Source: Spongilla lacustris | Taxonomy: Eukaryota > Porifera > Demospongiae > Spongillida > Spongillidae | DNA: 64,000 bases | Direction: 5' to 3' | Assembly: GCA_949361645.1 (NCBI GenBank) | Contig: OX442420.1 | Span: forward strand, 1,642,244 to 1,706,243 | Shown: one piece after another, positions 14,992-37,729 of the stretch | Layout of the letters: each line of letters opens with the position of its first letter | Numbering within the stretch: position 1 is the stretch's first letter | Made by a program: the position numbers and the translations under genes | The notes under the pieces: generated by a model | Told to the model about the DNA's origin: nothing | Databases searched by the model: none | What the model saw: only the letters and a program-made list of their open reading frames with translations

Positions 14992-15592
14992 TTAATTTTT
15001 TTTTTCCTTCTTTTGTGGAAGGGGGACGGCAGCTAAAACTTGTGGGGAAATGCTTATTAAGTGTTCTTTGACAATGCACAGCAAATGCTTTACTTTGTCA
15101 GTAACTGCTGTGTAGGCTAAGCCAAGTCGTGTAAACTTGGCATGGATGGACTCAGCCCCCTGTTCGCCTAGGAGGCCAAATCCAACGTGCGTAGAATTAG
15201 CCCATGTAGTAGCATGATCCTCCAGGATATGCATCTTAATGGGGACTGTTGCCTCTGGGAAGGACTTCCGGAAGTACGCCATAAACTGTTCAATGGCGGA
15301 AATCAATTGTATAGTCTTGAGTTCAAATGAAAATGATACTCACCTAGAGCAAAGGTTTTTGCTTCATCAATGAAATTCTGGTTATATATGTTGTGGCAGC
15401 TAGCAAACATGCAAAATGTATTGACCAGAATGTCGGTACGTTGTAGCTCTACAACGCGATAGGGCAATCTGTTTTGTGCAGTTTGAACCAGTGACTTGCA
15501 CAGTGTCTGGATATTAGATAGCTGTAAAGTGAAGAAGTTGCATGATCACTACTTCTAAACTTAGATTTTTAGTACCTTTAGAGTCTTGTGTA
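14992..15592 (-). pseudogene. RAG1-like transposase, C-terminal exons (3' half of split gene)
   Basis: Three pieces on the minus strand. 15576-15592 encodes the few residues ending HKTLK before a GTACTA donor and abuts the LTR. 15344-15521 has a CAG/ acceptor and ends CTAG/GTGAGT; residues include LFASCH-like FCMFASCHNIYNQNF and DEA. 14992-15315 includes MHILEDHA, then FGLLGEQGAESIHAKF, and ends in a Lys-rich tail before TAA. GEQGAESIH corresponds by position to the segment carrying the third catalytic acid (E) of RAG1/Transib transposases; this is inference from family knowledge. The phase between the last two exons does not match, so an extra lesion or a misjudged border is likely. The 5' half lies at 34760-37542. 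Confidence 0.75.
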
Positions 15593-15760
15593 TGTTACGT
15601 GGGTCAACGGGCAACTTTAATAGTAACTTCACAACAAATGCACTTACAACATTGCCGTACTCCGTAGCTAAGCAACCCCGCAGCTGTTCCTATAATGAAT
15701 ATTATTACGCGGGCATTTCCGTGCGCAGACGCAACAAATATACAGTACTACATTGTTACA
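15593..15760 (-). repeat. 3' LTR of Ty3/Gypsy-type retrotransposon (168 bp)
   Basis: Read on the minus strand it starts TGTAACAATGTAGTACTGTA and ends ACCCACGTAACA, with TG...CA termini. It is preceded on that strand by a polypurine tract (AGGAGGGGAGTAT, 15761-15773). It matches the LTR at 37543-37708 closely. The flanking 4 bp after the LTR (TACA in minus sense) equals the 4 bp before the other LTR, so both belong to one insertion. The LTR is unusually short. Confidence 0.85.
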
Positions 15761-15797
15761 ATACTCCCCTCCTAGTTTCTTGCATCCTTGCAAGATC

Positions 15798-16475
15798 TTA
15801 GTGTTCAACATAAATCCCATAGCGATCAGGGGGTCTTCGATTTCTCTGGGGACGTGCCATTTGTACGTTGTCTGCGTCAGGCTCATCATCTGCATCTACA
15901 CAGCATCCAGATTCTGCATGCACTGCATAATCTTCAAAAGCAAGATTTTCTTGGGGTTTTGACGGTCGAGACGCCTCATCTGTTTGCTTTGGAACTGGGT
16001 TAGCTCTGCGGTTTTGTCCTTTTCCTTCTTTAGGTAGGCCGTAACATCGTTTCAATCTATTACGATGGACAACAACCGTTTTCGTGGAGCCCACTAGCTG
16101 GATGCGGTAATTTAATGCACCATTTATACGGTCAATCACAGTATAAGGTCCCCGCCAAAGAGAAGCCAGTTTTTTGGTCCTTCCCTGTTTTACTGCAGGT
16201 ACAAATAGCCACACCTGATCACCTACTGTGAACTTCTCTCCACTTACACCCTTGTCATACTGCTTCTTGCTTCGATCATGAGCTGAAGCCAGTTGTTCCT
16301 TCACATCACTGAAGATCTTGCGGAGAGATTTGTTCAATGTCTCCACATACTGAGGTACCGTCGGCTCTCCCCCCTCTCCGTATTCCTGAACATTCAATTG
16401 ACCGACGGCAATGTCAATTGGTAGAAGTGGAGAGCGTCCAAAGTTGACTCGAAATGGAGAGTAACCACTAGACAC
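15798..16475 (-). pseudogene. Retrotransposon integrase C-terminal part and tail
   Basis: Frame begins with the SSGYSPF segment that normally follows the integrase core. It contains a coiled, charged stretch and then a GPY/F-type module (WRGPYTVIDR, then VHRNRLKRCY) and an Arg/Pro-rich tail (RPQRNRRPPDRYG) ending just before the polypurine tract. It is out of frame with the integrase core upstream: the two frames overlap at 16468-16475, marking a small indel. As genomic DNA the element therefore cannot encode a full polyprotein. Confidence 0.85.
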
Positions 16476-17149
16476 ATGAATGGAAAGCCGTCCTAAACGC
16501 GAACAGTGCCTTTGGGATATGACAATCCCAATCCCTTTGGTTTTCCGCTACCACTTTGGACAAAATGGCTTCCAAGGTCCTGTTGAAGCGTTCCACCTGT
16601 CCATTTCCTTGAGGATGGTATGCTGTGGTTCTCGTCTTGTTGATTCCCAACCGTTTGCACAGAGCAAATATTACCTGGCTGTTCAGGTTAGCACCTTGAT
16701 CACTGTGCAGTGAACGAGGCACACCATACCTGCACACAACTTCATCCATCAGTACAGATGCCAGAGTCTCTGAATCAGTCACTGCCAATGGAAAAGCTTC
16801 AACCCATTTACTGAACAGATCAGTAATAACTAAAATGTACTTGTTCCTTTTAGTGGACAGAGGAAGAGGCCCCATTATGTCCCAACTTATCACATCAAAT
16901 GGATAAGTACACTTGATCGATCCAAGAGGTGCCAGAGGATGAGGTTGAGGTGGATTACGCTTTTGACATTGTTGACATTCTTGAACCCAATTCTGAATGT
17001 CCATCTCATATCCAGGCCAATAGAAGCGCTCCTTCACTTTCTCAGTTGTCCTCTGAACACCCAAATGACCTGACTCGTTGTGCAATTTCTCCAAAATGAT
17101 CTTCACATGACCTTTAGGGACCACCAGCTGTGTACGCACTGCCTCTGAA
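16468..17149 (-). pseudogene. Retrotransposon integrase core (HHCC zinc domain and DDE)
   Basis: HHCC zinc-binding domain (HNESGHLG ... CQQCQKRN), then the integrase catalytic core with the expected acids in SWDIMGP, HSDQGANLNS and VERFNRTLE. It belongs to the pol gene of a Ty3/Gypsy element; the reaction is insertion of the cDNA into chromosomal DNA. The 5' edge is the hAT copy at 17150-18375. The coding frame resumes exactly across that insertion once one target duplication is discounted. The 3' edge carries a frameshift near 16470. Confidence 0.92.
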
Positions 17150-18375
17150 TAGGGTGTGTAACCTCCCCTGAATAATGAAAATCGATTTTTCCGAATACTT
17201 TTAAAACACTAATCGATTTTTCAGGTTTTTCTGGATCTGAAAATCGATTTTTCCGAATACTTGATAAAAGAAAATCGATTTTTCCGAATAGGTTTTGACA
17301 ATTTGCCAGCCGAATACCTAGGTTATTCAGGTTTTCTGCTCACTGAGGCACCTAAATGTACACATCACACATTCACACCAGAGACTCTCCTACAGCTACC
17401 CACATCACACCAGATGCCCTCAGCACACAAACACACCTACCCCCATCACACCAGATGCCCTCAGCACACAAACACACCTACCCCCATCGCACCAGATGCC
17501 CTCATGAGGCCACAACCATAGCTACCCCCATCACACCAGACACCCTACTACAACTACCCACATTACACCAAATCAGTACCCTCAGCATGCATCAACAGCT
17601 ACACACATCACACCAGATGCACTCAGCACACAACCACAGCTACCTACATAGGCCTAAATTTGCTTGGCCTAACCACATACCTAGTTGGGCGTGTCCTGAC
17701 CTAAGTTAGCGTGGCCAAGCTGAGATCTCCCTACAGATGTACACATCGCACTTGATGCCAAAAGAATAGAACCACAGATGACGTTTGCGCACCACCGGCC
17801 AGCCATGCAGCCTCCATGTCTAAATAATCTATGATACTAGTAACTAAGTAGGCCTAAATACGATCGCGGCAATATCAGCTCAGAGAGATTGATGCAAGAA
17901 ACCACCTAGTTCGAAACGCACTAAGCGAACTAACTTTGATTTGTAGCTGGAGCTGTCCGTCGTCATGACACGTGAAGAGGGAGATCTCTTTTGGCTACAT
18001 GTAGTTCGAATTACTGCCCGTAATACATGCATTTGATCTCGTCCCCACGTATATATTTATAGTAACAATTGTGACGTTATAACTTTAAAATAGAAGTAAT
18101 TATTGTCGTACATGTACATATACTAGTAATATCGTAAACGCGTATCCGGATATCGTCATAAAAATGTATTCGAATAATGGACGAATTGTCGATGCGGACG
18201 ATGAATACCTAAGTACCTCCGAATGGAGATTCACAAACCGGTTATTTCGAATAGAACAAATCCAATAATCAATTTTTCCGAGTAATTCTAAATTACTATT
18301 CGAACGGATAGGTTTTTGCGAATATCCGAATAACCCGAATAACCCGAATAACCTGATAACCGGTTACACACCCTA
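17150..18375 (-). mobile_element. Non-autonomous hAT element, family A copy 2, inserted in pol
   Basis: Same TAGGGTGTGTAACC terminal repeats as copy 1 but in opposite orientation. Flanked by the 8-bp target duplication CCTCTGAA (17142-17149 and 18376-18383). It carries the same CGAATA / ATCGATTTTTC subterminal words and a shorter internal minisatellite (about 17400-17640). It interrupts the retrotransposon between RNase H and integrase, so it is younger than the retrotransposon. Confidence 0.93.
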
Positions 18376-18775
18376 CCTCTGAACATGATGCCCTAAACTT
18401 GCGGCACAGTAGCCCATCTTGAAGAAATGTCTTTTTCAACCCTGGCACTGTACTAGAAGGAAAAGCAGTCCCATTCTTCAAGGCTTCGATCACTTTACCC
18501 AATGCAGAGTCTTCTTCTTGTGCTTTCAGAAATGTATGAAGTGTATCCTCTGAGATGAACTCTTCAATGGCAGCCACTGTGTCATCCCTTGATGGAATCC
18601 GCGACAAGGTGTCAGCATTTGTATGTAACCTTCCTGGCTTGTACTGGAATTCTAAGTTGAATTGCTGAAGGAAAAGCAGCCACCTTGTCAGGCGTCCTCC
18701 AACATCCTTAATCCCTTTGAGGCTTGTTAGAGGATTATGATCTGTGATCAACTTGCATGGAAAGCCATACACACA
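18376..18775 (-). pseudogene. Retrotransposon RNase H second half and linker
   Basis: Contains the ITDHNPLTSL segment and the RWLLFLQQFNLEFQYKPG ... NADTLSRIP motif that closes the RNase H domain of Ty3/Gypsy pol. It is shifted relative to the upstream frame: an extra GT dinucleotide within a short GTGTGT run near 18770 accounts for the break. Confidence 0.88.
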
Positions 18776-20212
18776 TAAGGATAAAATTCCTTCAATGAAG
18801 CAACCACAGCCAATGCCTCTCTCTCTGTAGTTGAGTAATTTCTCTCTGCCTTCTGTAACTTCCGGCTCCAATACGCGATAACACGTTCTGTACTCACTTG
18901 AACCTGGCTAAGAACAGCCCCAATTGCAGCATCAGATGCATCCGTATGGAGTAGGAATGGTTGCTTAAAATTAGGATATGCCAAAATGGGTGGTGAAACT
19001 AATCTTGACTTCAACTCCTCAAAAGCATCCTGACTTGCTGAATTCCAAGAGAAAGACTTAGCGTTTTCTTTGCCCAAAAGTTTAAACAAGAGAGCAGCAA
19101 TCTTTGAATAGTCCCTCACAAATCTTCTGTAGTAATTGCAGAGGCCCATAAACTGCTTGACTTCTTTTGCATTTGTTGGGACTGGATAGCTGACAACAAC
19201 CTCAGTTTTGGCTGGATCTGGACAGATACCTTCCGCTGACACTACATGTCCCAGGTACTTGACAGCCTTCTGTACAAAGTGGCATTTCTCAGACCTAAGT
19301 TTCAACCCAGCATCTTGCAGCTTTAGAAAAACCCTTTCCAAACGATCCAAATGCTCCTGAAAAGTAGAACTGAAAACAATAATGTCGTCAATGTAGATGA
19401 GACATTGCTCCCCAGTAAGTCCAGCAAGGACACACTCCATAAGCCTTTGGAAAGTGGTGGGAGCATTTATGAGTCCAAAAGGCATGACATTGAACTCAAA
19501 GAGACCCTTTTCTGTGGAGAATGCAGTTTTCTCTTTGTCACCCTCCTCTATCTCTACTTGCCAGTAGCCAGAAGCAAGATCTAGTGTTGTGAAAAGTGCT
19601 GATCCTGCTAGCGACTCCAAAGTTACATCAATTCTTGGAAGCGGGTAAGCATCCTGATGTGTAGTAGCATTCAACTGTCGATAATCAATGCAGAACCGCC
19701 ATGAGCCATTCTTCTTTTTCACCATCACTACAGGAGATGACCAAGGGCTACTGCTGGCTCGGATTACTCCTTTTGACAACATCTTTTCTACTTCTTCATT
19801 TACATTCCTCTTCAAACTTTCAGGCTGGCGGCGTCCAAAAGTAGTGATACTGTGCTTCACTACACTAGTTCTTCCCAGTTCTCCATTCTCTGAGACAAAC
19901 AAATCACCAAACCTATCTAGAAGATTTCTCAATTTTTGTTTCTCCTTTTCTGAAACCTCCAGACAATCCAAATTCAGTTTCGCTCCAGCAGATTTGTTGT
20001 CACCAGAAACTGATGCTGCTACATTACTGTTTTCCAGTAGAAGTAAATCATTTTGTACCACAAACTCACCCAACTGAACTCCTCCATACACCTTCACTGC
20101 ACTAGGGCTCACGTTCATCACCTGCACCATGATGGAGCCACCAGATGACACATGACCTAAGGAGCGAGCCACACAAAGATGTTTTGGTAGTTTGACAGCA
20201 GGCTCTATCATC
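18764..20212 (-). pseudogene. Retrotransposon reverse transcriptase and RNase H first half
   Basis: A long frame with reverse transcriptase motifs in order: RFCIDYRQLN, LDLASGYWQ, FNVMPFGL, the YIDDIIVFS active site, LGHVVS, then the tether and RNase H start (LLHTDASDAAIGAVLSQ, TEREALAVVASL). Typical of Ty3/Gypsy pol, in which it copies genomic RNA to cDNA in virus-like particles. The 5' end is interrupted by the hAT copy at 20213-21363; reading resumes in frame on the other side. The 3' end carries the GT-repeat frameshift. Confidence 0.95.
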
Positions 20213-21363
20213 TAGGGTGTGTAACCGGTTATCAGGTTATTCGGGTTATTCGGATATTCGCAAAAACCTATCCGTTCGAATAGTCATTTAGCATTACTCG
20301 GAAAAATCGATTATTGGATTTGTTCTATTCGAAATAACCGGTTTGTGAATCTCCATTCGGAGGTACTTAGGTATTCGCCGTCCGCATCGACAATTCGCCC
20401 ATTATTCGAATACCTTTTTATGACGATATCCGGATACGTGCTACGATATTACATGTACATGTACGATAATAATTACTTCTAATTTGAAACGTAACGTTAA
20501 TTAACTTAATATACGTGGGGACGAGATCAGATGTACGGGCAGTAATTCGAACTAGCCAACAGATCTCCCTCTTCACGAGTCATGACGACGGACAGCTCCA
20601 GCTACATATAAAAGTTAGCTCGCTAACTTCGCTTAGTGCATTTCGAACTAGCTGGTATCTTGCATCAATCTCTCTGAGCTGATATTGCCGCGATCGCATT
20701 GTATTTTAAAAACTCGCGATGGTGAAACGGAGGCTGCATGGCTGGTGGTGCGTAAACTTCATCTGTGGTTCTATTATTTTGGCATCAAGTGCGATGTGTA
20801 CATCTGTAGGTAGACCACAGTGCAGCGTGGCCACGCTAACTTAGGTCAGGACACGCCCATCTAGGTATGTGGTTAGGCCAAGCGATTTAGGCCTATGTAG
20901 GTAGTTGTGGTTGTGTGCTGAGTGCATCTGGTGTGATGTGAGTAGCTGTGGATGCATGCTATACTGATCTGGTGTAATGTGGGTAGTTGTAGGAGGGTGT
21001 CTGGTGTGATGGGGTAGCTGTGGTTGTGTGATGGGAGTAGCTATGGTTGTATGCCTCATGAGGGCACTGGTGTGATGGGGGTAAGTGTGTTTGTGTGTTG
21101 AGGGACATCTGGTGTTATGGTTTAGCTGTAGGAGGGTAACTGGTGTGATGTGTACATTTAGGTGGCTCAGTGAGCAGAAAACCTGAATAACCTAGGTATT
21201 CGGCTGGCAAATTGTCAAAACCTATTCGGAAAAATCGATTTTCTTTTTTCAAGTATTCTGAAAAATCGATTTTCAGATCCAGAAAAACCTGAAAAATCGA
21301 TTAGTGTTTTAAAAGTATTCGGAAAAATCGATTTTCATTATTCAGGGGAGGTTACACACCCTA
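20213..21363 (+). mobile_element. Non-autonomous hAT element, family A copy 3, inserted between protease and RT
   Basis: TAGGGTGTGTAACC terminal repeats, same orientation as copy 1, flanked by the 8-bp target duplication CTATCATC (20205-20212 and 21364-21371). Internal minisatellite is shorter and more degenerate than in copies 1 and 2. Together with copy 2 it shows the retrotransposon was hit at least twice by the same family. Confidence 0.93.
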
Positions 21364-21840
21364 CTATCATCCCATCTAGTTCTGCTTGAGCACAGAACTC
21401 CTCCTTTAAAGTAGCAACAACCACACGTACGGAATGTCCCGGGCTCCAAAGCATGTACTGTGATGCTACTCTTGTTGTTGTTGGAGGTTTCTTCCTGAGT
21501 GGGGACCATAACCGACTCATTTCCCAAGTGAAGAGTGTTAGTCCTAAAGTCCATGACAGCCTTGTTGCTTCTAAGAAAGTCAACACCCAGTATGCACTCA
21601 AACGTTAAATCCTTAACAACTATAAACGTATGAGCTGCTTGGAAAGTTCCCAGAGAGACGTCAATATTCACCTGACCCATCACTTTCAAAGGCAGGCCAT
21701 TCGCACCAATTGCCGTTTTGGAAGTAGCTGTCAACGATTTCCTGCTCCTATCGTCCAATGCATCATTCCGTATCAAAGATAAAGCTGCGCCTGAGTCCAG
21801 TAGTATTTGCAAACATCTTTGTCCCACATTCCCACCAGCA
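21364..21840 (-). pseudogene. Retrotransposon aspartic protease
   Basis: The frame contains LLDSGAALSLI, the D-S/T-G active-site motif of retroviral-type aspartic proteases, and the second signature ILGVDFL about 70 residues on. It matures the Gag-Pol precursor. It continues in frame, through the hAT insertion, into reverse transcriptase. Upstream of 21831 the reading is lost; a 13-bp word here (21818-21830) recurs at the end of the gag fragment at 31947-31959. Confidence 0.88.
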
Positions 21841-22390
21841 AAAAGCAATGAATTCCATGGCCAGCAATTGAGGACATGAATAATAAGTTACTATAGGATG
21901 ATGATATTAAAATTCTGATTTCACCAATATATTTTCCTGATTTTTTTATGATTTATCATACTTTCAAAATGGCTAATTATTAATTAAAATTAATTAACTA
22001 TATTTACAACAACATGTTATTTTATGAACGCCGCATAGTAGTTAGCTTATAAAAAGACTAGTCCTGTATTTTTGGGTGCTAAAACTCTCGTTTTGTAGCT
22101 CAAAAACCTAAGTACAACATACGCATGCGCAAAATTAATTGACTGCGTTACTCGTTCCCAGAAGCTTAAAGCTCACGCGACGCAGGATCCCTCCCTCGAG
22201 CTAGTTCGCTACTAAACATTTAGAACCTTCCGTAAGTTGTGAAGTGAATGTGTGTTGCTTGGCTTGCAAGGATGCTCTAAAAGCAATTTGTCGTGTTGGT
22301 GTGGCCCAACTAGCTTTTGCATAAAAGTTTTAAGCAACTTAACCATAAAAAGTGTGCGTGCTCTTTGTATTAAGAGTGTGAAGGGTTAAT
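21841..22390. other. AT-rich unique sequence, no gene seen
   Basis: Part of the roughly 10-kb stretch that separates the protease from gag sequence. No domain, terminal repeat or RNA motif was recognised. Confidence 0.4.
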
Positions 22391-22399
22391 CAGCCTAAC

Positions 22400-22775
22400 G
22401 GCAAAAATAGCCCTATGGGTGTGGTCTTTGTAAGAGTTTAAAGGGTTAATCAACCTAGCGGCAAAAAGGGTCCTGTGGGTGTGGTCTTTGTAAGAGTGTC
22501 AGGGGTTAAGGCACATAGCCGAAAGAAACAGCCCAGTGGTTGTGTTAAGACTGTCAGGGGTTAAACAACAAAGCCGAGAGAAAGAGCCCAGTGGGTGTGT
22601 TAAGAGTGTCAGGGGTTAAACGACATTGGGTGTTTTAAAAGTGTCAGGAGTTAAACGACATAGCCGAAAGAAACAGCCCAGTGGGTGTGTTAAAAGTGTC
22701 AGGGTTAAAGTACATAGCCGAGAGAAACAGCCTAGTGTGTGTGTTAATAGTGTCTGGGGTTAAACGACATAGCCG
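22400..22775. repeat. 55-bp tandem repeat, left block
   Basis: Six to seven copies of a 55-bp unit containing GTGTCAGGGGTTAAACGACA and TAGCCGAGAGAAACAGCCCA, with small indels. The same unit resumes at 26565, so the pyrimidine-rich array between them interrupts or grew within one original array. Confidence 0.93.
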
Positions 22776-22784
22776 AGGGAAACA

Positions 22785-25144
22785 GCCCCTCCTTCCCTCC
22801 TCCCTCCCGCCCTCCTCCCTCCCGCCCTCCCTCCCCCTCCTTCCCTCCCCCTCCTTCCCTCCCCCTCCTTTCCTTCCCCTCCTTCCCTCCCCCTCCTTCC
22901 CTCCCCCTCCTTCCCTCCTCCTCCTTCCCTCCTCCTCCTTCTCTCCCCTCCTTCCCTCCCCCTCCTTCCCTCCTCCCTCTCTCCCTCCCTCTCCGTCACA
23001 CTCCATCTGTCTGTGTGAGTGTGTGTGTGTGTGTGTTTGTGATGCTACCAGTAAATATACATATTGTGGATATGCTTACATGTAGATGTGTGTTAATATT
23101 GTTTGGATCCTCCTTCACTCCCCCTCTCTCCCTCCCTCCCTCCCCCTCATTCCCTCTCTTCCTCCCTCCCTCCCCCTCCTTCCCTTCTCCCTTTCTCCCT
23201 CCCTCCTCCCTCCCTCCCTCCCCCTCCTTCCTTTATCCCTCTTTCCCTCCCCTCCTTCCCTCCCCCACTCTCCCTCCCTCCTCCCTCTCCCCCTCCTTCC
23301 CTCCTACCTCCCTCCCCTCCTTCCCTCCTCCCTCTCTCCCTCCCTCCCCCCCTCCCTCCGTCCCTCCCTCTGTCCCCCTTCTCCCTCTCTCCGTCCCTCT
23401 CCCTCACACTCCATCTGTCTGTGTGTGTGTGTGTGTTTGGGATGCTACCAGTAAATATACATATTGTGGATATGCTTAGATGTGTGTTAATATTGTTTGG
23501 ATCCTCCTTCACTCCCCCTCTCTCCCTCCCTCCTCCCTCCCTCCCTCCCTCCTCCCTCCCTCCCTCCCTCCCCCTCATTCCCTCTCTTTCTCTCTTCCTC
23601 CCTCCCTCCCCCTCCTTCCCTCCTCCCTCTCTCCCTCCCTCCTCCCACCCTCCCCCTCCTTCCCTCATCCCTCTTTCCTCCCCTCCTTCTTTCCTCCCCT
23701 CCTTCCCTCCCCCTCTCTCCCTCCGTCCTCTTTCTCTCCCTCCCTCCATCCTACCTCCCTCCCCCTCCTTCCCTCCCCCTCCTTCCCTCCTCCCTCTTAC
23801 CCTCTGTCCCTCCTCCCTCCTTCCCCCTCCTTCCCTCCTCCCTCTCCCCCTTCCTCTCCCTCACACTCCATCTGTCGGTGTGTGTGTGTGTTTGTGATGC
23901 TACCAGTAAATATACATATTGTGGATATGCTTAGATGTGTGTTAATATTGTTTGGATCCTCCTTCACTCCCCCTCTCTCCCTCCCTCCCTCCCTCCCTCC
24001 CTCCCTCCCTCCCTCCCTCCCTCCCTCCCTCCCTCCCTCCCTCCCTCCCTCCCTCCCTCCCCCTCATTCCCTCTCTTCCTCCCTCCCTCCTCCCTCCCCC
24101 TCCGTCCCTTATCCCTCTCTCCCTCCCTCCTCCCTCCCTCCCTCCCCCTCCTTCCCTCATCCCTCTTTCCCTCCCCCTTCCCTCCCCCTCCTTCCCCCCT
24201 ATTTCCCTCCCTCCTCCCTCTCTCCCTCCCTCCCTCCTACCTCCCTCCCCCTCTCCCTCCCTCCCTCCCTCCCTCCCTCCCTCCCCCTCCTTCCCTCTCT
24301 CCCTCCCTCCCTCCCTCCTTCCCTCCCTCCCCCTCCTTCCCTCCTCCCTCTCTCCGTCCCTCTCCCTCACACTCCATCTGTCTGTGTATGTGTGTTTGTG
24401 ATGCTACCAGTAAATATGCATATTGTGGATATGCTTAGATGTGTGTTAATATTGTTTGGATCCTGCTTCACTCCCCCTCTCTCCCTCCCTCCTCCCCCCC
24501 TCATTCCCTCTCTTCCTCCCTCCTTCCCTCCTCTCTCTCTCCCTCCCTCCTCCCTCCCTCCCTCCCCCTCCTTCCCTCATCCCTCTTTCCCTCCCCCTCC
24601 TTCCCTCCCCCTCCTTCCCTCCCCCTCTCTCCCTCCCTCCTCCCTCTCTCCCTCCCTCCCTCCTACCTCCCTCCCCCTCCTCCCTCTCTCCCTCCCTCCT
24701 TCCCTCCCTCCCCCTCCTTCCCTCCTCCTCTCCCCTCCTTCCCTCCTCCCTCTCTCCCTCTCCGTCACACTCCATCTGTCTGTGTGAGTGTGTGTGTGTG
24801 TGTTTGTGATGCTACCAGTAAATATACATATTGTGGATATGCTTAGATGTGTGTTAATATTGTTTGGATCCTCCTTCACTCCCCCTCTCTCCCTCCCTCC
24901 CTCCCCCTCATTCCCTCTCTTCCTCCCTCCCTCCCCCTCCTTCCCTTCTCCCTCTCTCCCTCCCTCCTCCCTCCCTCCCTCCCCCTCCTTCCCTTATCCC
25001 TCTTTCCCTCCCCCACTCTCCCTCCCTCCTCCCTCTCCCCTCCTTCCCTCCTACCTCCCTCTCCCTCCCTCCCCCCCTCCCTCCCTCCGTCCCTCCCTCT
25101 GTCCCCCTCCTCCCTCTCTCCGTCCCTCTCCCTCACACTCCATC

Positions 25145-25180
<36 letters not shown>

Positions 25181-26560: not shown

Positions 26561-26564
26561 CGAG

Positions 26565-27060
26565 AGTAACAGCCCAGTGAGTGTGTTAAGAGTGTCAGGG
26601 GTTAAAGTTCATAGCCGAGAGAAACAGCCCAGTGTGTGTGTAAAAAGTGTCAGGGGTTAAAGTTCATAGCCGAGAGAAACAGCCCAGTGAGTGTGTTAAA
26701 AGTGTCAGGGGTTAAACTAAATAGCCGAGAGAAACAGCCCAGTGGGTGTATTAATAGTGTCAGGAGTTAAACTACATAGCCGAGAGAAACAGCCCGGTGT
26801 GTGTGTTAAGAGTTTCAGGGGTTAAATGACATAGCCGAAAGAAACAGCCCAGTGGGTGTATTAAAAGTGTCAGGGGTTAAAGTACGTAGCCGAGAGAAAC
26901 AGCCCTGTGGGTGTGTTAAGAGTGTCAGGGGTTAAACGACATAGCCGAGAGAAACAGCACAGTGGGTGTGTTAAGAGTGAGTGTCAGGGGTTAAACAACA
27001 TAGCCAAAAGAAACAGCCCAGTGGGTGTGGTGTGTGGTGTACCTGAGTGTCAGGGGTTAA
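26565..27060. repeat. 55-bp tandem repeat, right block
   Basis: Nine or so copies of the same unit as 22400-22775 (spacing of CAGCCC words 55 bp), decaying toward 27060. Confidence 0.93.
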
Positions 27061-27355
27061 TAACAGTGGCTTTATACCATATATGGCAGTGACATGTCAG
27101 GTCAACATCTAAAGAAGCCTTACAAATTATCTCCCCATAACCCAACACAGGTGTTAGGGACTAGGTCATGTGTGGTGTTATGTGATGCATCCTGCCTATT
27201 CACATGCACTCTACAGGGTTAACTGACCTTATGGTATGTACTGCAATGTGGTGGTCAGTGAATGTTTCGGTTTGAATTTACTCCATGTGTGTGGTTGTAC
27301 GTTGAGAGTGTTCAGGGTTAATGAAAATAATGTTCTTAGGAGCTTTTAACTTGAT

Positions 27356-28900
27356 AGCTACATGTAGTTGTGTGGTCCCCTTTTATCCATCAGTCCACAC
27401 ACACACTTGTCAACATGCACATGCACTCACACACACACTTATGCACACACATTGAGCTTGTATCTTAACACTTGGCACACTAACTGTTATTTCCCACATT
27501 GTTAACTGACCTTACAGCTATAATGTAGCCTGGAATTTGTGGCCAATGACTTAGAGAGATTAACTTACTGTAGCCGGACATGTAGCAAGTGAGGGAATGG
27601 GAGTTGAGTGATGGACCTGTTAATATCATATTCATATTGTGCACCTACATGTATGTACTTATGTTTTACAGCTGCTACATTGCTTTTATCTGATTCAGGA
27701 TGCATGTATGGTTCTTCTCCCTGCCACCCCTCCTGCACACACTGTCTCCCTTTCACACACACACCACCCTTCTTCCCTACACACCTACTTCCTTTCCTTC
27801 CCCTCCTTCCCCCCACACTTGAGGGAAGGGCTTTCCTATTGTTCACTAGCTTATGTACACATGTGGTTGTGTACATGTACATGTATGTGTGTTGCAGCTG
27901 TAGCTTTATCTGATACAAGGAACTATTTTGCTACATATAGCATAAGCCTGCTGTAATGGCCTGCTTGAGCTACATGTAACCATGTCAGCAGATAGGGTAC
28001 CATGCCAAGATATGTGTGTCCTCCATAATAACGTATCTCCTTCCATCATTAATGTGGTCATACTGAACGGTCTATGAGAATGGTCTTAAATTGAGAATGT
28101 AAAATAATGTTCTAAGGTACCCTTGTACATTTAGTTACATGTAGGTCTTCCACTGAGACAGCATGTATGGTTTAACATTACAGCTACATGTAGTTGTGTG
28201 GTCTGTACCGTCAGTTAACCCCATTTATGGACCATCCGTCCACACACGCTTGCACACACATTTATGCACACGCACACACACGTACACTTATGCACATGCA
28301 CACACAATTATGCGCACGCACGTGCACACACATTGAGCTGGTACATATATCTTAACACTTGGCACACTAACTATTATTTCCCACATTGTTAACTGACCTT
28401 ACAGCTATAATGTAGCCTGGGATTTTGGTCAAAGATTAACTGACTGTACATGTAGCTAGGATGGACCTGGTGTTATGTTAATATCATATTCATATTGTGT
28501 ACCTACGTATACATGTGGTTATTTATTTGATTTACAGCTGCCCTTACATGTACAATGTATATTGCTTTTATCTGATTCAAAATATGGTTCTTCTCCCTGC
28601 CACCCCTCCTGCACACACTGTCTCCCTTCCACACACACCACCCTTCTTCCCTCCACACACCAACCTTCCTTTCCTCCCCCCCCCCCCCCCCCCCCCCAAA
28701 TGTGAGGAAGGGCTTTCCTATTGTTTACTTATGTATTCATATGGTTGTGTATGTGTGTTGCAGCTGTACCTTATCTGATGTAAGATGCAGAGTTCGTATT
28801 TGGCTACATATATAGGATAAATAAATATGAAGAGAAGCTTGCTGTAATGGCCTGCTTGAGCTACCTATGCCAGCAGATAGAGTACCATGCCGATACATGT
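27356..28900. repeat. Tandem duplication of about 880 bp
   Basis: Two diverged direct copies, spaced about 880 bp. Shared landmarks are TTCCCACATTGTTAACTGAC (about 27491 and 28379) and TTCTCCCTGCCACCCCTCCT (about 27714 and 28591). The last shared landmark is the CATGCC word near 28890, inside the first exon of the candidate gene that follows. In the first copy that exon is not open, in the second it is. Confidence 0.8.
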
Positions 28901-29385
28901 GTGTCCTCCATATTACTCATCGTTAATGTGGTCATACAGAACCTTGATGGTCCCCGACTACCTTCATACCTTTTCATCATCTGCACATTATGGTACGCCT
29001 GCAAAGCTGCAAAATGTGGTGGAGGCAGGGACAATGGAGAGGTACATATGCCACTGAGAACCACTCCATTGACAATGTTCGTGTTGTATTATCCTCTCTC
29101 TCTCCTCCCATTCAACAGATCATCCTCCATCCAATATGCCAACATTTTCCTATGCTGCTGTCATTAGAAGCTATATTCATGAGTGTGTGCATTGTGAAAC
29201 TCAGTATCCTGATACATGTAGTTGGATTCTTATGCCTTCTTGTGATTTACATACTGATTTTATTTGACATGGTTATATTATTCAATATGAAAACTTTTAA
29301 AAAGCACACTAACAAGTGTGCAATACTTGGCACATCTTTAGCTGGGGACATACAACAACTCTTAAATTCATCTGGTGAATGTTAA
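28883..29385 (+). CDS. Candidate two-exon gene end, hydrophobic (membrane) protein
   Basis: Exon one (about 28883-29041) reads VSSILLIVNVVIQNLDG and YLFIICTLWYACKAAKCGGG, ending GAG/GTACAT. Exon two (29119-29385) follows a CAACAG acceptor in matching phase. It carries a long hydrophobic run (LIHVVGFLCLLVIYILILF) and a basic tail before TAA, so two or three membrane segments are likely. The intron would be 77 bp, in line with the other introns here. The family is not recognised. Both the position in a duplicated satellite-rich stretch and the lack of a start exon make this tentative. Confidence 0.35.
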
Positions 29386-29541
29386 CTTCAAGGGAAGGGT
29401 ATATCCCAAAAATCTTTTATATAAAAACATGCACAGTGAATGTCACAATCTGGGACAGTATCTGGTGTTGGAGCACACACCCAACTTACTCACCCCATTG
29501 TAGGTTAAGGGGGAGTAGTGTGATGGTAGTATAGTATGTAG

Positions 29542-29544
<3 letters not shown>

Positions 29545-29591
<47 letters not shown>
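29545..29591. repeat. (TG)n microsatellite
   Basis: Pure GT run of roughly 45 bp immediately before the G-run satellite. Confidence 0.95.
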
Positions 29592-29593
<2 letters not shown>

Positions 29594-30590
29594 GGGGAGG
29601 GGGAGGGGAATGCCAAATGACTTTTGTGTAACTTAAAATTTCTATCACCTGACTCAAACAATAGACAGTAAAGTGTTTCTCCTACTCTGGGACATGATTG
29701 GGACACTGTAAAGCATAGCAGTATGCATGGGTCATATGTTTGGGGGAGGGGGGGGGGGGGGTTAGTGACTTTTGAGTAACTAAACATTTCTATCACCTAA
29801 CTCAAACAATAGACAGTGAAGTGTTTCCCCTACTCTGGGACATGATTGGGACAGTATGTAATGTTTAGGTAGCTTAGCAGTATGCATGGGTCATATGTTT
29901 GGGGGAGGGGGGGGGGGGTTAGTGACTTTTGAGTAACTAAAAATTTCTATCACCTAACTCAAACAATAGACAGTGAAGTGTTTCCCCTACTCTGGGACAT
30001 GATTGGGACAGTATGTAATGTTTAGGTAGCATAGTAGTATGCATGGGTCATATGTTTGGGGGAGGGGGGGGGGGGGGTTAGTGACTTTTGAGTAACTAAA
30101 AATTTCTATCACCTAACTCAAACAATAGACAGTGAAGTGTTTCCCCTACTCTGGGACATGATTGGGACAGTATTTAATGTTTAGGTAGCATAGCAGTATG
30201 CATGGGTCATATGTTTGGGGGAGGGGGGGGGGGGGGGGGGTTAGTGACTTTTGAGTAACTAAAAATTTCTATCACCTAACTCAAACAATAGACAGTGAAG
30301 AGTTTCCCCTACTCTGGGACATGATTGGGACAGTATGTAATGTTTAGGTAGCATAGCAGTATGCATGGGTCATATGTTTGGGGGAGGGGGGGGGGGGGGG
30401 GGGTAAGTGACTTTTGTGTAACTAAAAATGTCTATCACCTGACTCAAACAATAGACAGTGAAGTGTTTCCCCTACTCTGGGACATGATTAGGACAGTATG
30501 TAATGTTTAGGTAGCATACATGGGTCATATGTTTGGGGGATGGGGGGGGGGGGGGGGGGGGGGGGGGGTAAATGCCAAATGACTTCTGTC
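29592..30590. repeat. 160-bp satellite with a G-run in each unit
   Basis: Six to seven tandem units of about 160 bp containing CATGGGTCATATGTTTGGGG, a G-run of 12-24 bases, TTAGTGACTTTTGAGTAACT and CCCCTACTCTGGGACATGAT. G-runs begin near 29746, 29903, 30061, 30219, 30380 and 30540. The G-run length varies between units; the rest is well conserved, suggesting recent amplification. Confidence 0.93.
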
Positions 30591-30763
30591 TAAATATCAC
30601 CACACTCCAGTGAAATTTTCTCCCTAACTTTACTCTGGGACAGGGTTAGAATTGTATATGCATGGGTGATATGTTGGGGAAGGGGGGAGCGGGGGGGGGA
30701 GGGGGGGGGGGCATAATGACTTAAGCATGTTATCATGTAACTTTTTGGAGAACACATTAATAG

Positions 30764-31113
30764 GAGGTGTGTGATAGTAGGGAGGAGTGTGATGGTAGGT
30801 GGGGTGTGATGGTAGGGAGGGGTGTGGTGTAGGGAGGGGTGTGATGTAGGGAGGGGTGTGATGGTAGGGAGGGGTGTGATGGTAGGGAGGGGTGTGATGG
30901 TAGTGAGGGGTGTGATGGTAGGGAGGGGTGTGATAGTAGGGAGGGTGTGATGATAGAGAGGGGTGTGGTGTAGGTGGGGTGTGAAGGTAGGGAGGGGTGT
31001 GGTGTAGGGAGGGGTGTGATAGTAGGGAGGAGTGTTATAGTAGGGAGGGGTGTGATGGTAGGAAGGGGTGTGGTGTTGGGAGGGGTGTGATGGTAGGGAG
31101 GGGTGTGGTGTAG
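30764..31113. repeat. 18-bp minisatellite array
   Basis: About 19 copies of GTAGGGAGGGGTGTGATG with GGTGTG / GATAGTAG variants. The minus strand reads as a His/Pro/Thr repeat frame, which is an artefact of the period. Confidence 0.95.
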
Positions 31114-31114
31114 G

Positions 31115-31945
31115 ATCTATGCTAACATCTAGCTTCGTGGGCAATGTACTTTACATGTAATTAAAACGAGCGCAACTATTATACACTCCGGTATTTGGTT
31201 TTGGTCATTAGTTAGGCCAGCTACCCGGCCGGGTAGACTAGGACCGGAGCTAGCTAGATGGAGCTCGAGCGGTATACGGTAATTGTAAAGTGATCACTAC
31301 GCGCGCGAAACGGTTACTAAAGCCACACCCACTGGCTAGCTCGACTGCCTTCCTTACGAACCACGCTCATCACCTTTAGACACCTTCTCTTTGTCGGTGA
31401 TATTAGAAAAGGAGTGGTTAATACGCAATAGTATGCCCTGTTTTGCCTATACAACACCACGCATCTTGGCTACTAGTATGTCGACTGGTACAGTGGTACT
31501 ACCGGTAGTACCTACTCCTTTCGATCGCGACCACACATTTGTAGAGTGCTTCAACCACAACCACGAATGTATCTGTAAACATTAAACGCGTACTCACCCG
31601 GCTATGTCGATGCGAATCTGCTTTTAATTACTGCGCACGTCACGTACTGGTACTGACTCGACACAAACCTAGCGCTAGCTGTAGCAAGCTAGAGTTGTCC
31701 TAGCTAGTGGCTCGACGAGTCGACAGTATTATGAATCAGCGCTAGCCGCTTGTACAACGTGATCGCTTTAGAGAAGCTAGCTAGCTATCATGGATGTTGG
31801 TCTGATCGCAGCTAGTCCAGAGTGTGCATGTTCGCACGCGCGCCTCGTACGCCCTACTTTTACTCTTGCTTGGTGCATGTACGTCCACTACACCGACAAC
31901 ACGGCTATTAGTACCGCCGTGACGTATGCATGAATTACATCATAT
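31115..31945. other. CpG-richer unique sequence, no gene seen
   Basis: Contains several CGCG and GCGC words and CTAGCTAG-like runs, compatible with an unmethylated promoter-like stretch. No coding exon was recognised. Confidence 0.25.
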
Positions 31946-31959
31946 ATTTGTCCCACATT

Positions 31960-32520
31960 TTACAGTGGAGTCCACAAAGTTGCCAAGGGAAATTGTTGCT
32001 GGCATAGTAGACGAATTACACCCAAAGATCAATGGCTCACGCTGTGTAGATTTGTGAACATTCATTGGTTCCCAGGCCTCCCGCCGTTCACCTTTCCGGT
32101 AGGCCCGTTGAAGTTTAAAGGACAGTACCTTTTGATGTGTCCCTCCTCTCCGCATCGAAAACAGCACGTTCTTCCGCTTTTTCGTTGCTTGCATAACGAC
32201 GCCCCGCCACTTGCTCCGTTACTCTCGTCTCTGCCTTCGTCTTGGAACTACCGGCAGCAACTGAGGATTGCACCACGCTCTGCAACTGTGCCTCCATGTT
32301 TCCCAATCGCTCTGTCAATTCTTTCAGTGCTACTTTCAACCCAGTGTCGCAATCCTCCACGGAACTTACCTTAGCATGCAGCTCCATTGGTTTGGACTCA
32401 AACTCCAGTACAAGTTCAATTTCTCTAGCCGCCTCAATGGCCTTTTCGAACGTGTCCGGCTTACCTCGTAATAACAGCTGCGTGCTAATGGGAGTCTTTA
32501 GTCCCAACACGAACCGCTGC
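31960..32520 (-). pseudogene. Retrotransposon gag, C-terminal half with CCHC zinc knuckle
   Basis: On the minus strand the frame starts at 32520 with capsid-like sequence (RFVLGLKTPIS ... TFEKAIEAAREIEL), followed by a coiled stretch. After a frame change comes a CCHC nucleic-acid-binding knuckle (CFRCGEEGHIKRYC, about 32110-32155). The left break at 32520 coincides with the palindrome-rich element. Its first codon continues the frame of the gag fragment that stops at 38096/38593 on the other strand, so these are halves of one gag. Confidence 0.8.
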
Positions 32521-32735
32521 CGGTGTCATAGGGTATACGGTCCGGCCCAATTTTCGGTCCGGCGGACCGTATTCCCTAAGGGAATACGGTCCCCCCCGGA
32601 CCCAACTCCCTAGGGAATACGGTCCCCCGCGGACCGAGTTCCCTGGTTGTACAAAACCAATTAACCGGACTCAATTCCCTAGGGAATTGAGTCCCCCCCC
32701 CGGACCGTATTCCCTGGTTTTAAATACTTGCATGT
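32521..32735. mobile_element. Palindrome-rich element end (copy 1), CGGTGTCATAGGG terminus
   Basis: Starts CGGTGTCATAGGGTATACGG at the gag break and continues with alternating GGACCGTATTCCC and GGGAATACGGTCC words separated by C-runs, so it can fold into several short hairpins. An almost identical start lies at 38594, also at a gag break. In gag orientation the two are inverted, as expected of the two terminal inverted repeats of one element. Superfamily not identified. Confidence 0.6.
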
Positions 32736-32739
32736 ATAT

Positions 32740-33570
32740 GTATATTCCACCCCTTGCATTCACGTAAGGGCTGGCACATTTGGTTCGAAAAGCAAAAGCC
32801 AACGATCGCAGGTCGTCAACTATATAAGCAGCTTCTGTAACAATGAACTGGGACTGGGATGCTAATTCTAAAACTAATTTGTTATACAAATGTATATTTA
32901 TATTAAGTTGTTACTATTTTTATATGTTCCCATTATGATTTGGTTCGAAAATGATCGCATACAGGTCGTCAACTATGCATGCAGTTTCTGTAACAGTTAA
33001 CACTGTTTAACATTATCAAATTGTGTGAACACCAAGTGTAGAAAAATTTAATAAAAGATGAAAAGAAATAAACACATATATCATAATAGTCAACTGAACA
33101 TAAGAGAGATGAGGGTACTGGATAAGTCTCAATTTCATACCTGTAAAAAAGAAAACAAAAATAGTACACTTCAGCCATTATTGTTTAGAGAATGATGCAT
33201 AAGTGTTTTTCAATCATGTGCATAATAAAAAGTGAATTTCACAGACAAATAACGCTGCTCGTGTGCCCAAATATTTTCTGCAGAGGGGGGAGGTAGGAAA
33301 AAGAAGTTGGATGAGAAGAGAAGTAAGAAGAGGTAAAGGGACACATACAGCTTTAAGCCGCATGTGGGCCCTCAACATTGGTCCTTAATTAGTAGTTAAC
33401 TCGACCTGGCACACTCTTTAAGTGTGACTGAATGCTTCCTCTATACACCTGTGTCTGGAGAAAAAGAAATGGGATGAGAGAGGAATGAATGGGGGATAAT
33501 AGTCAAGAGACATGCTGATATTGAGTGTAATCAATTTCGTACCTAATTAAATCAGCCAAAATGTGAATTT
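32740..33570. other. AT-rich sequence without a gene
   Basis: No domain or repeat was recognised apart from two similar TGGTTCGAAAA...GATCGCA...CAGGTCGTCAACTAT blocks (about 32779 and 32941). One inversion breakpoint should lie somewhere between here and 34660. Confidence 0.35.
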
Positions 33571-33583
33571 CACAGATAAATAA

Positions 33584-33775
33584 ACTTGGTGGCATCAATT
33601 TATATTGCTTGTGTCTCAGGTGTCTTTTTAGTCTTGAGTGTCACTGTGCATTAGACACATGGCATTAGCAAGATATAAGCTTGGCAGCATAAACTAATAT
33701 TGCTTGTGTCTCTGGTGTCTTTTTAGTCTTGAGTGCCACTGTGTATTAGACACATGGCATTAGCAAGATAGCTAC
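33584..33775. repeat. Tandem duplication of about 95 bp
   Basis: Two direct copies containing ATATTGCTTGTGTCTC, GGTGTCTTTTTAGTCTTGAG and TTAGACACATGGCATTAGCA, differing at a few positions. Confidence 0.9.
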
Positions 33776-34661
33776 TTTTTGCTGCATGTGCATGATTAAA
33801 GCCATGCTTAAGGATTACAATAAAACTGAATAACTAACTGTTTTAGTGGTGTTGTATGGGCTGGATGTCTGTGTATAGGTTTGATCGAAAATTTACATAT
33901 CTTGTAGGGACAGCGCCTCTTTGTAATATCCTCACATGTCTTTAAGCCGTCACCTTATATGTACGCAGCCAATTAATAGCAACGTGACAACGTTGTGCGC
34001 CAAAATTTTATCCGTAATACCATTCTAACGGTTGCAATTGCATCACATCATCGACTATGGAAATGGCGCACCGTACTGGCCAAAATTGGTGGCTTGTAAT
34101 CCGCGATGTTTTCTCGTCCGTAAACGCCATCAATCAGTTTTATGGTACCCAGACCCACACTCTCAGCTGCAAAAGTCGTTCTGGGCTCTTTCGCGCCAAA
34201 AGTGACGTAATGGGTGTAGGTCTCATTAATGGTGCAATTGGTCAATTATTGATAGCAATAAAATATTAAAAGATCATATAAGAGGAAACGGTTGTTTGCG
34301 GCTGGAAACTAGGTTTATAATTAGAATATTACGGTACCTGTCCAAATAATTGTGAAGAAACACCTCATTACAGACACCTTATGTTTCAGAGTTCTTAACA
34401 CCTCAGATCAGCAGCAAAAATATATACTTATCTGTAGCATACAACACAACGTTTCAACCACTTTTATTTATAATGAACACGCATTTTTTAAATCGCACAT
34501 GAAATTTATGCGCAAGCAGTGTTTACATCGCCACGCGGCACTTATTTTGGAAGGGCGTGTACAAGATCGGATATTGTGGACTTCCTGCACAACGGTTGGA
34601 GGTAAGACTAGGCTTTTCGTAAGTCAAAGGCATGCCAAATAAAGAAGTGATGAACCACTTC

Positions 34662-34678
34662 TGTCGACGAATTTTCTG
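34662..34678 (+). other. Candidate terminal inverted repeat before the RAG1-like start codon
   Basis: TGTCGACGAATTTTCTG lies 82 bp upstream of the ATG of the RAG1-like gene; its partner is at 14713-14729. It does not begin with the CAC(T/A)(A/G)TG heptamer known for Transib and ProtoRAG ends, which weakens the assignment. Confidence 0.4.
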
Positions 34679-34759
34679 TCGCCCGAAAAGACCAATGTGT
34701 ATTTTATGAATAATCGATGCGTGTTGTGGTCATTGCGTACATGAACATTGGTTACAAGA

Positions 34760-37542
34760 ATGGACTACCACATTAAACAACTGCCGCTGCACTGCAGAGT
34801 ATGTGGACAAAGGCTGATGACAAGGAAGCGGAGATCCACGTCACGAATGCAAAGCATTTGCAGCTGATTTGCAAATTGCCTTTTCTATTAACACCAATAC
34901 TGATAATGCTCAAGTGTACCCTGAACACTTCTGCCATTGCTGTTACCATACAATGCAGAAGATCATCAGTGCCAGGGTAGGAGGAGTGCACCACAGGTGT
35001 GCCCTGACACCATTTGTATGGGAAGCACATACCAATGAAGGGTGTAAGGTACATACTACATGTAACTGCTTTTATGCAACATTATCAGTATAAATCATAC
35101 CACAGGTGTGTGAGCATTTCAGTTTCAATGCAAAAGGTCCAGTTAGGAAGCATACAGTTGGCAGAGGTCGTCAACCTGGCCTCACACCGAACTGGCCTCA
35201 CACCGAACATGTTAATTGCCCATCTTTGGAAGATTGCCCCTCCTCCAATCTTCTCAAGTGAGCCATACCCACCACTGGCAGGCCAAAACAGTGCCACTGT
35301 CCTGAAGGAGTTGAAGTGTATGGTGTGTTCAAACATTCTCAAACAGCCCCTTGAACTGCCATGCCGTCAGCTGGCCTGTACCAGCTGTGTTGTGGAGCGA
35401 GTAGCAGCATCAACCCCCAGTGTGTCCTTGCTGCTCGGAGGATAGCTCCTTGGTACCCACAGAGATAAGACCAGCACCAAATGCTGTATTGCTCTTGTTG
35501 AAGGATGTAGGCCTACTGGTACAATGTGTGGAGTGCCACAGGGTTATGAAGGCTGGCTGTTACGATGGGCACGAGTGCACACCATATCTCACTGCTGGTG
35601 AGGAGAGAGAAGCAGCCGCACTGCTGAAGAGGGCCATCTCCACCAGCCCCGATCCAGCAGGCATAATACAACTGCCTAGAGGAGGAACAGCTAAGTGTAT
35701 TCAATCTCACTTACATTACACTAAACCATACCTTGTAGCCAATGACATTCATGCGTGTGACCAAAGCCCGCCACCTGACCTCAGCTGCTTGTTCCAAGAC
35801 TGTGAAGACGAGGCGTGCAGAGATGCACACAGCCAGAAGCATCGTCAGTGGAGGAGAGCCGTCTGCCCTGATGGAGGAGGAGGTACTCACTCTGAGTGAT
35901 GAAGAGAGGATGTCTCTATTGCAGAAGGCAGGCATCACAAACATTGCAATCGACTCTGTCCAAGTATTGGCCATAAAAGTCGGCATGGCTATTCCCTGGA
36001 ACGGTTTGAGACAACTTAGACGATAAAGCATTACACAAAAAGTATAAAAATAACCTACATATGCATTACTTGTCTAGGTGGCTGAAAGCGTCAGGAGTAT
36101 CTCTAGCTGGGGAGCAGCGGATGTGCAACATTTGCAGGCAAATTGTGGGCGACAACTTGAAAGGAGAGATGGCTCTATTCTCATTTCCTCATCCTTCTGG
36201 TGGTGAAGAGCTTAGGGGAGCTCCTCTGGTTTATATTCCAGATCTGGTTCAGAAGGTTGTTGACCTCTTGGAAGAGAATGAAAGGTTAATTAGGAGGTCA
36301 AGGCATAAACCTTGCAAAATAATTTTAACCCTATGTAGGACAGGACGGCTTACCTGGCATGATGGGGTCATCCCTGCCAGTGAGGTGTGGTTAAAAATAG
36401 GAGGGGACAAAGGAGGTGGTTCGTTCAAGATGAACTTTCAGATTGTAAATGTTCCAGCGCCTAACTCAGTCCACAACACCTGCGTGTTTTGCTGCTTTGA
36501 AGCGGGCGACACTGTTACCAACCTCCACATAGCACTTGACCGCTATAAAGATCAAGTTGCACATCTGCAAGGAATGAAATGGAGGTAAGAACAGTTAATA
36601 TCAAATGATTTTAAAAATGAACATTAAACCTACAGGCAATACACACTCAGGCTGTTCATGTGTGGAGACTACGAGTTCATTACTAGAATGTACGGGCTGT
36701 CAGGAGCAAGTGGTATGTGACTATTTGCATAGGTGCTAAACAAAGTGTACAAACATTGCACCTTTCTTATAGGATGCTACCCATGTTTGTATTGCTTGGC
36801 CCACCATCAGCACTTAGTAACACCTCTCTCAGTCAGAGGACCAGCTCCACCCAGAACATTTGAAACTATCAGTGCTGACCATCAGCACTACATTGCTTCA
36901 GGGTTTGGCAAGAAACAAGCACAACACTTCTATAACTGCATTTCAGAGCCTATTTTCAACATCCCCATTTCGCAAGTAAGTATAAATGAATTTGCCAAGA
37001 ACTGTTTTGTATGATCATGCACATGCACACACACACACGCTAGGTATGCCCACCTGGTCTTCACATCACTTTGGGCATCTTTACCAAGATTTATGGGTTG
37101 CTTGAAGACGAGTGTCATACCCTTGACCTTGAGCTGGCTCTGCACTCAAGAGACGATGCCCACTTCAGCTTCTCCAATTACAGCCATGAGCTGCAAAGGC
37201 TTTGGAAGCTACAAGCAGAGTTGGAACAAGCCCAGGAGTCATATGATTTGTCGCAGCAAATGGCAACATATGTATCACTAGTTGTTGGGGAGAATGCTTC
37301 AAGCAATGTGAAGACAAGATGAAATCTCTCAAACAACTTGTAAGCCATGCATGCAGTATAAAATGTGTATTGACACACCAATCACACTAGGAAACAGATG
37401 TAGCCAACTGCACAGCCACAGTGAAGAAGGGATTTTCGATCAAGGACGGCCCCTTTGTTAAGGAGCTGGACTCTGCACTGCAGTCCATAGGAGTACATCA
37501 CCTGCAATATTTTGGAGGTGCCTTTGTGGGCAATCATGTACA
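34760..37542 (+). pseudogene. RAG1-like transposase, N-terminal exons (5' half of split gene)
   Basis: Starts at ATG 34760 (MDYHIKQLPLHCRVCGQRLM). Exons: 34760-35048, 35106-about 36026, 36078-36284, 36339-36584, 36636-36712, 36773-36975, 37044-37339, 37391-37542. Domains: zinc-binding CRVCG with EHFCHCC; RING (LKCMVCS ... LPCRQLACTSC ... CPCC) followed by CVEC and H-C pairs, as in RAG1; then a DDE-type core. Candidate catalytic aspartates are in LKIGGDKGGGSFKM and FMCGDYEF; a CLYC motif follows. Lesions: frameshift near 34840; a 16-bp tandem duplication at 35176-35207; an indel near 35410; a missing GT donor near 36026; a 1-nt loss near 37292. It ends abruptly at an LTR. The same lineage in other invertebrates is a RAG-like transposase that cuts DNA at terminal repeats. 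Assignment to RAG1-like rather than plain Transib rests on the RING and zinc region. Confidence 0.8.
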
Positions 37543-37710: not shown

Positions 37711-37729
37711 TTAGTGTCAGAAGTGGGAT
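37711..37729 (+). other. Primer-binding site
   Basis: TAGTGTCAGAAGTGGGAT two bases after the 5' LTR is complementary to the 3' end of a tRNA (leucine-type, by memory of the family), apart from one mismatch in the CCA-complementary TGG. It is where minus-strand cDNA synthesis would start. Confidence 0.65.

Follow-up and report, generated by a model that had tools for sequence, protein, structure and literature searches.

A split RAG1-like gene in the sponge Spongilla lacustris is very probably a dead copy of a recently mobile Chapaev-group transposon

We analyzed a stretch of 64,000 nucleotides from Spongilla lacustris (the window; contig OX442420.1 of assembly GCA_949361645.1, forward-strand positions 1,642,244 to 1,706,243), in which an earlier note had described a RAG1-like transposase gene split into two oppositely oriented halves. 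This gene very probably belongs to an abundant cut-and-paste DNA transposon of the Chapaev group that was mobile until recently, and the window holds a dead copy with its own insertion history (a judgment that excludes the inversion considered below). The opposite halves reflect a dead copy cut by the insertion of a long terminal repeat (LTR) element and, apparently, by an inversion, and not a biological gene arrangement. Exons on the plus strand at 34760-37542 carry CRVCG, a RING-like block, GGDKGGG, and CGDYEF, and those on the minus strand at 15592-14992 carry GEQGAESIHAKF, all as reported earlier (Table 1).

The two halves derive from one element, because in all 15 other copies that we read from the same genome (L022-L036), the sequence of window 34288-37542 (+) continues directly into that of 15592-~14325 (-); in three of these copies, the alignment to the plus-strand part begins at later starts. 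The insertion site is uninterrupted in every copy, with the N and C parts overlapping by four bases. The join that had been proposed from GNHVH to HKTLK proved correct, since all 15 read the N part straight into the C part (...GGCAATCATGTACACAAGACTC; GNHVHKTL). At the locus itself, AGGA stands at both outer ends and TACA beside both LTRs, as expected of one gene and one insertion.

Matches to one exon piece number at least 152 in the S. lacustris genome (248.6 Mb), a lower bound because 150 of 475 candidates were scored. From the 20 highest-ranked places we took 10 kb around each of 16, leaving out the window itself and L014, L015, and L018; the copies studied are therefore among the best preserved of the family. 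Of the 16, L021 repeats window 32-40 kb almost exactly in inverted orientation (99.9% over 8 kb) and was excluded as an independent copy, giving n = 15. Both ends were read in 13 of these, leaving out L030 (5' end truncated) and L031 (5' end unaligned). The element is ∼4.55 kb long and has the ends CACGG...CCGTG in all 13. A 4-bp target duplication flanks 12 of the 13, in addition to the AGGA of the window copy, and a 5-bp duplication was found in none of them (0/13).

The gene was modeled on copy L024, where 11 exons, separated by ten GT-AG introns of 51-70 bp, encode a transposase of 946 aa. When the model was projected on the 15 copies, the frame was open to the stop in 9 (L024 included), and a tenth, L022, showed no stop at all. 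All ten intron borders are kept in 13 of the 15, and the other 14 copies differ from L024 by 0.11-1.1% in substitutions. Judging from these sequences, the family has moved recently, and it may still be able to move. More distant relatives are also numerous in the genome, at about 40-80% identity and often interrupted by stops, so that the family shows a layered radiation. No RAG2-like gene was found inside the element: L024 leaves 473 bp on the 5' side and 676 bp on the 3' side outside the gene, with longest open reading frames of 81 and 76 aa, and the earlier remark that no RAG2-like partner was seen thus holds within the element.

Unlike the open copies, the window copy gives no single open frame, although its exons could be located as described earlier. 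Exons 1, 2, and 8 carry frameshifts, and splice sites are lost: the intron 3 donor reads AT instead of GT, and the acceptor before exon 11 is deleted. The first base of its terminal inverted repeat is A instead of C. Compared with L024, it has 64 mismatches, and window 34287-37542 is 96.8% identical to positions 2-3264 of the L024 element. The window copy is dead even apart from the LTR insertion.

We assign the element to Chapaev by published definitions, taken here and below from excerpts of the cited papers, because it has 4-bp duplications, CAC...GTG ends, DUF1280, and the diagnostic motifs; Chapaev sequences were compared by description only. Chapaev elements are described as making duplications of 3-4 bp, as ending in CAC...GTG, and as combining DDE with the motifs C(2)C, LH, and H(4)H (PMC4079192), and DUF1280 is described as corresponding to Chapaev transposases and falling in one clade with RAG1 (PMC3985635). 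In two Chapaev subgroups, a Chapa domain is followed by a RING, as in the N-terminal part of RAG1 (Kapitonov and Koonin 2015, PMC4411706); the hosts named for the group in the excerpt of that paper are lancelet and sea anemone. Correspondingly, the sponge element shows 4-bp duplications, CACGG...CCGTG ends, C(2)C, LH, and H(4)H with DDE, and Chapa followed by RING. Its DUF1280 match lies above the curated cut-off both for the element pieces (E = 1.1e-12) and for the L024 protein (E = 5.4e-12), and the family was found in 35 of 37 relatives (E up to 0.1). Residues C434/C437, H742/H747, and D345/D415/E768 are conserved in P0001, and L503 H504 (the LH motif) is invariant in a 14-row alignment.

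The N-terminal half resembles RAG1. Among solved chains (the best 60 of 87 for L024 and the best 60 of 164 and of 144 for two profiles), RAG1 was the best match of the L024 protein (E = 1.6e-7), in two collinear stretches that align residues 2-100 to RAG1 120-214 and residues 155-246 to RAG1 282-373. With the profile of the 37 relatives, mouse RAG1 came first at E = 1.7e-27, collinear over RAG1 101-381, and the N-terminal RAG1 chain 21wb and the RING chain 1rmd were matched at 1.2e-12 and 1.2e-10; the second profile agreed (RAG1 at 8.7e-28). Because RAG1 is best both with the single sequence and with the profile, the likeness is more than chance, and a chance match is ruled out by these two values. 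The profile comparison that had been called for thus places RAG1 at the top, via the N-terminal half. In Pfam, the element pieces matched RAG1_imp_bd (2.3e-4) and RING families (best 3e-4), all below the Pfam cut-offs, and RAG1_imp_bd was found in 13 of the 37 relatives (E up to 0.1, best 1.6e-7). Neither the element pieces nor the L024 protein matched PF12940 (RAG1) at E up to 1, and this family was absent for the 37 relatives among the 25 of 33 Pfam families listed; a search of the S. lacustris genome with it also gave no match, yet 14 control genomes were equally silent.

Structure prediction, also proposed earlier, gave a RAG1-type core fold for the DDE core, with the predicted model matching RAG1 from DDBD to CTD. 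Among the best 50 rows of the fold search, RAG1, BbRAGL, HzTransib, and P element are followed by RING proteins or long-helix proteins. Some fold alignments reach RAG1 391-410, the region of the nonamer-binding domain, but with root-mean-square deviations of 6-10 Å. A RAG1 fold likeness is expected in kind, because DUF1280 and RAG1 share a clade and related families share zinc motifs, which are described as common to CACTA, Mirage, Chapaev, and Transib (PMC12730594).

The closest protein among the candidates scored, itself a transposon protein, comes from Ephydatia muelleri and is 94% identical across 87% of the query. Other relatives come from starfish, crinoid, sea urchins, sea cucumber, and acorn worm, at 28-36% identity, three of them covering 99-100% of the query; the two large protein searches scored the 7993 candidates sharing most words, so that the taxonomic distribution is incomplete. 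With the acorn-worm (hemichordate) protein as query, a lancelet relative was found, among six proteins listed, four of them new. In a 28-row tree, in which five rows are not counted, the 11 sponge rows (all Ephydatia or S. lacustris) form one side of a branch with support 100/99, so that the sampled rows show no sponge-deuterostome exchange.

Several findings weigh against this account of the element. Neither of the two core exon pieces matched a solved structure by sequence at E up to 1, the RAG1 stretches among the best chains listed for L024 and both profiles are all N-terminal, and the core likeness to RAG1 is one of predicted fold without sequence match. For the L024 protein alone, the Chapa-region alignment reaches just 14.8 bits (independent E 0.049), a weak match, and RAG1 is followed in the ranking by many RING proteins of unrelated kinds, which means that RING alone is not RAG1-specific. 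Copy L022 has neither a 4-bp nor a 5-bp matching duplication. Of the RING finger claimed in the earlier note, a RING-like block was found, but its zinc-binding His is lost in the element (CRQLAC). This His is kept in 0 of 7 sponge rows covering the stretch (L024, P0001, P0002, P0003, P0005, P0016, and P0022, with Q, K, or T instead) vs. 4 of 4 deuterostome rows, and ubiquitin-ligase function may have been lost in the sponge lineage.

Could the element nevertheless be a true RAGL or Transib transposon, as first proposed? RAGL/ProtoRAG elements such as BbRAGL carry RAG1L and RAG2L and almost always make 5-bp duplications, which Transib makes too (both per the excerpt of PMC7204232), and canonical Transib (HzTransib) is described in the excerpt of PMC4411706 as having no identifiable domain beyond the transposase core. 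The sponge duplications are 4 bp, Chapa and RING regions stand beside the core, DUF1280 matches where PF12940 does not, there is no space for a RAG2L gene, and the single core exons lack a sequence match to solved chains. On duplication length, DUF1280, and the missing room for RAG2, we rejected membership, which we consider very unlikely; the earlier view holds for a RAG1-like transposase and finds no support for membership in RAG1, RAGL, or Transib. A domesticated RAG1-like host recombinase gene, rearranged in the genome, would fit the finding of a single long gene of many exons whose catalytic residues are conserved, but at least 152 matches of one exon piece, inverted ends with target duplications, near-identical dispersed copies and, at the window locus, its own AGGA duplication all contradict it. 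We rejected it on copy number and inverted ends, leaving a host gene with next to no probability.

The layout of the locus traces to a Ty3/gypsy-type LTR element, whose integrase, reverse transcriptase, and RNase H regions we take to lie at window 16468-20208 (-). Its gag-like region is in two pieces, which lie within 30 bp on one strand at 12 other places in the genome (29 and 24 places listed) and are inverted relative to each other in the window. Copies of one repeat, 97% identical to each other, stand at the two cut points. The layout is explained by an inversion spanning about 32.5-38.6 kb, which is likely to be real. The ∼0.5 kb after the first gag piece (window 38096-38592) has inverted ends (TAGTCTCGTACCCAGACC...) and CAGTACTTC on both sides and resembles a miniature inverted-repeat transposable element. 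The abundance of the family would also suit two different transposon copies, each interrupted, in place of one split copy. Against this, AGGA matches at the outer ends and TACA at the inner ends, the two halves join at one and the same base, and the gag of the LTR element is cut into complementary pieces; we rejected two separate copies on the matching duplications, and the idea has very little left to recommend it.

Separately, C6:1.656-1.841 Mb, which holds window 14-40 kb, forms a large inverted duplication, with the checked pieces 99.9-100% identical. The split layout recurs there in mirror image at C6 1.816-1.841 Mb (about 100% identity in the pieces checked). This duplicate is either a recent large inverted duplication or palindrome or an assembly fold-back; as a fold-back, it could make the inversion an assembly error, a further point against our account of the locus. 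Such an error would concern the opposite orientation alone. Mirror-image pieces of this identity are a setting prone to misassembly, but the layout is identical in both arms, and a palindrome-rich repeat is present at each breakpoint, which is what a real inversion would show; on balance, we regard an assembly error as unlikely.

The 946-aa transposase, the sole gene product of the element, has its domains arranged as in RAG1: Chapa zinc region, RING, zinc finger, pre-core region, RNase H-like DDE core with a C2C/H4H zinc insertion, and C-terminal domain. It would bind the CAC...GTG ends, cut through the D-D-E site, and insert with a 4-bp stagger. At the locus, the sequence itself records a transposon insertion that duplicated AGGA and a Ty3/gypsy-type insertion into exon 9 that duplicated TACA. 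Next, ∼6 kb (32.5-38.6 kb), with the N part, one LTR, and the first gag piece inside, would have been inverted between the two palindrome-rich repeat copies, so that the halves came to face opposite ways. At a distance of 0.14-0.18 Mb, the region is present a second time, inverted and nearly identical. The inversion and the order of events are inferred.

Table 1. Features of the interrupted transposon and of the inserted LTR element (window positions)
Feature	Position	Strand	Remark
Target-site duplication AGGA, 5' side of transposon	34283..34286	+	Same 4 bp at 14326-14323 (-)
5' part of Chapaev-type transposon, up to LTR insertion	34287..37542	+	Alignment to L024
Exon 1, Chapa zinc region / RAG1 importin-binding-like	34760..35048	+	Net 2-bp deletion
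Exon 2, RING-like domain then zinc finger	35106..35689	+	16-bp tandem duplication and other insertions disrupt frame
Exon 3	35739..36022	+	Donor GT is AT in window copy
Exon 4	36078..36284	+	
Exon 5, within DUF1280 match	36339..36584	+	Predicted first catalytic Asp codon 36406-36408 (GGDKGGG)
Exon 6	36636..36712	+	Predicted second catalytic Asp codon 36667-36669 (CGDYEF)
Exon 7, C(2)C zinc motif	36773..36975	+	Cys codons 36784-36786 and 36793-36795
Exon 8, LH motif	37044..37339	+	19-bp deletion in window copy
Exon 9, first part, to LTR insertion	37391..37542	+	
Target duplication TACA of LTR element	37539..37542	+	Same at 15592-15589 (-)
LTR of inserted Ty3/gypsy-type element	37543..37708	+	97.6% to other LTR
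LTR element gag-like region, first part	37720..38097	+	
109-bp palindrome-rich repeat, right inversion breakpoint	38590..38698	.	97% identical to left copy
109-bp palindrome-rich repeat, left inversion breakpoint	32517..32625	.	
Gag-like region, second part	32115..32515	-	Inverted relative to first
Other LTR of inserted element	15593..15760	-	
3' part of transposon	14327..15592	-	LTR duplication to terminal inverted repeat
Exon 9, remainder	15576..15588	-	
Exon 10	15344..15521	-	
Exon 11	14992..15297	-	First bases and splice acceptor deleted in window copy; H(4)H His codons 15231-15229 and 15216-15214
Candidate catalytic Glu, exon 11	15153-15151	-	Second Glu of GEQGAE
Target-site duplication AGGA, 3' side of transposon	14323..14326	-	

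Elsewhere in the window are a 1.1-kb palindrome (45686-46791, 96% self-complementary), an inverted repeat of ∼1.6 kb (57178-58798 and 58950-60578, 98% identical), and a hAT-type transposase at 52284-54416 (+), with DUF4371 and a hAT dimerisation domain in two open stretches of one frame around a stop.

Compared with known systems, the element is like Chapaev (CMC/CMCT, the Chapa and RING subgroups) in its 4-bp duplications, CAC...GTG ends, DUF1280, C(2)C, LH, and H(4)H motifs, and Chapa followed by RING; it differs, in a comparison made by description through DUF1280 and published hallmarks, in its occurrence in a sponge, in its near-identical open copies, and in a RING without the His. With vertebrate RAG1, it shares the collinear N-terminal zinc/RING half, the predicted core fold, and D-D-E with C2C and H-x4-H, whereas it has no RAG2 gene, makes 4-bp instead of 5-bp duplications, and yielded no core sequence match. 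The two predicted catalytic Asp are 70 residues apart, compared with 108 in RAG1, and the zinc insertion is predicted to be longer, with a long helical hairpin. The Aplysia element N-RAG-TP, which Panchin and Moroz reportedly described in 2008, is said to be a transposon made entirely of RAG1 N-terminal-like sequence. It thus shares such sequence with the sponge element and, by description, differs in being N-terminal-like only.

We found no report of a Chapaev or RAG1-like transposon in sponges in the open-access literature, with subscription journals and Repbase Reports outside this coverage. Chapa-RING Chapaev elements are known in kind, and it is their sponge occurrence with recent mobility that we have not found reported. 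The N-terminal half of RAG1 is described as without counterpart in canonical Transib (excerpt of PMC4411706), and its origin as debated between fusion with an N-RAG-TP-like element and inheritance from a common Chapaev/Transib ancestor. Tentatively, and with more doubt than confidence, the full RAG1 architecture (Chapa, RING, DNA-binding region, and RAG1-type core) could be an ancient transposase design that in sponges stayed mobile until recently without RAG2; a single full-length ancestor would then have given rise both to RAG1 and to Chapa-RING Chapaev, with Transib a reduced derivative of it and the N-terminal half of RAG1 inherited, not fused. The element extends the RAG1 domain architecture, without RAG2, to sponges, and its near-identical open copies are material for asking whether a transposase of this architecture cuts, forms hairpins, and transposes without RAG2.

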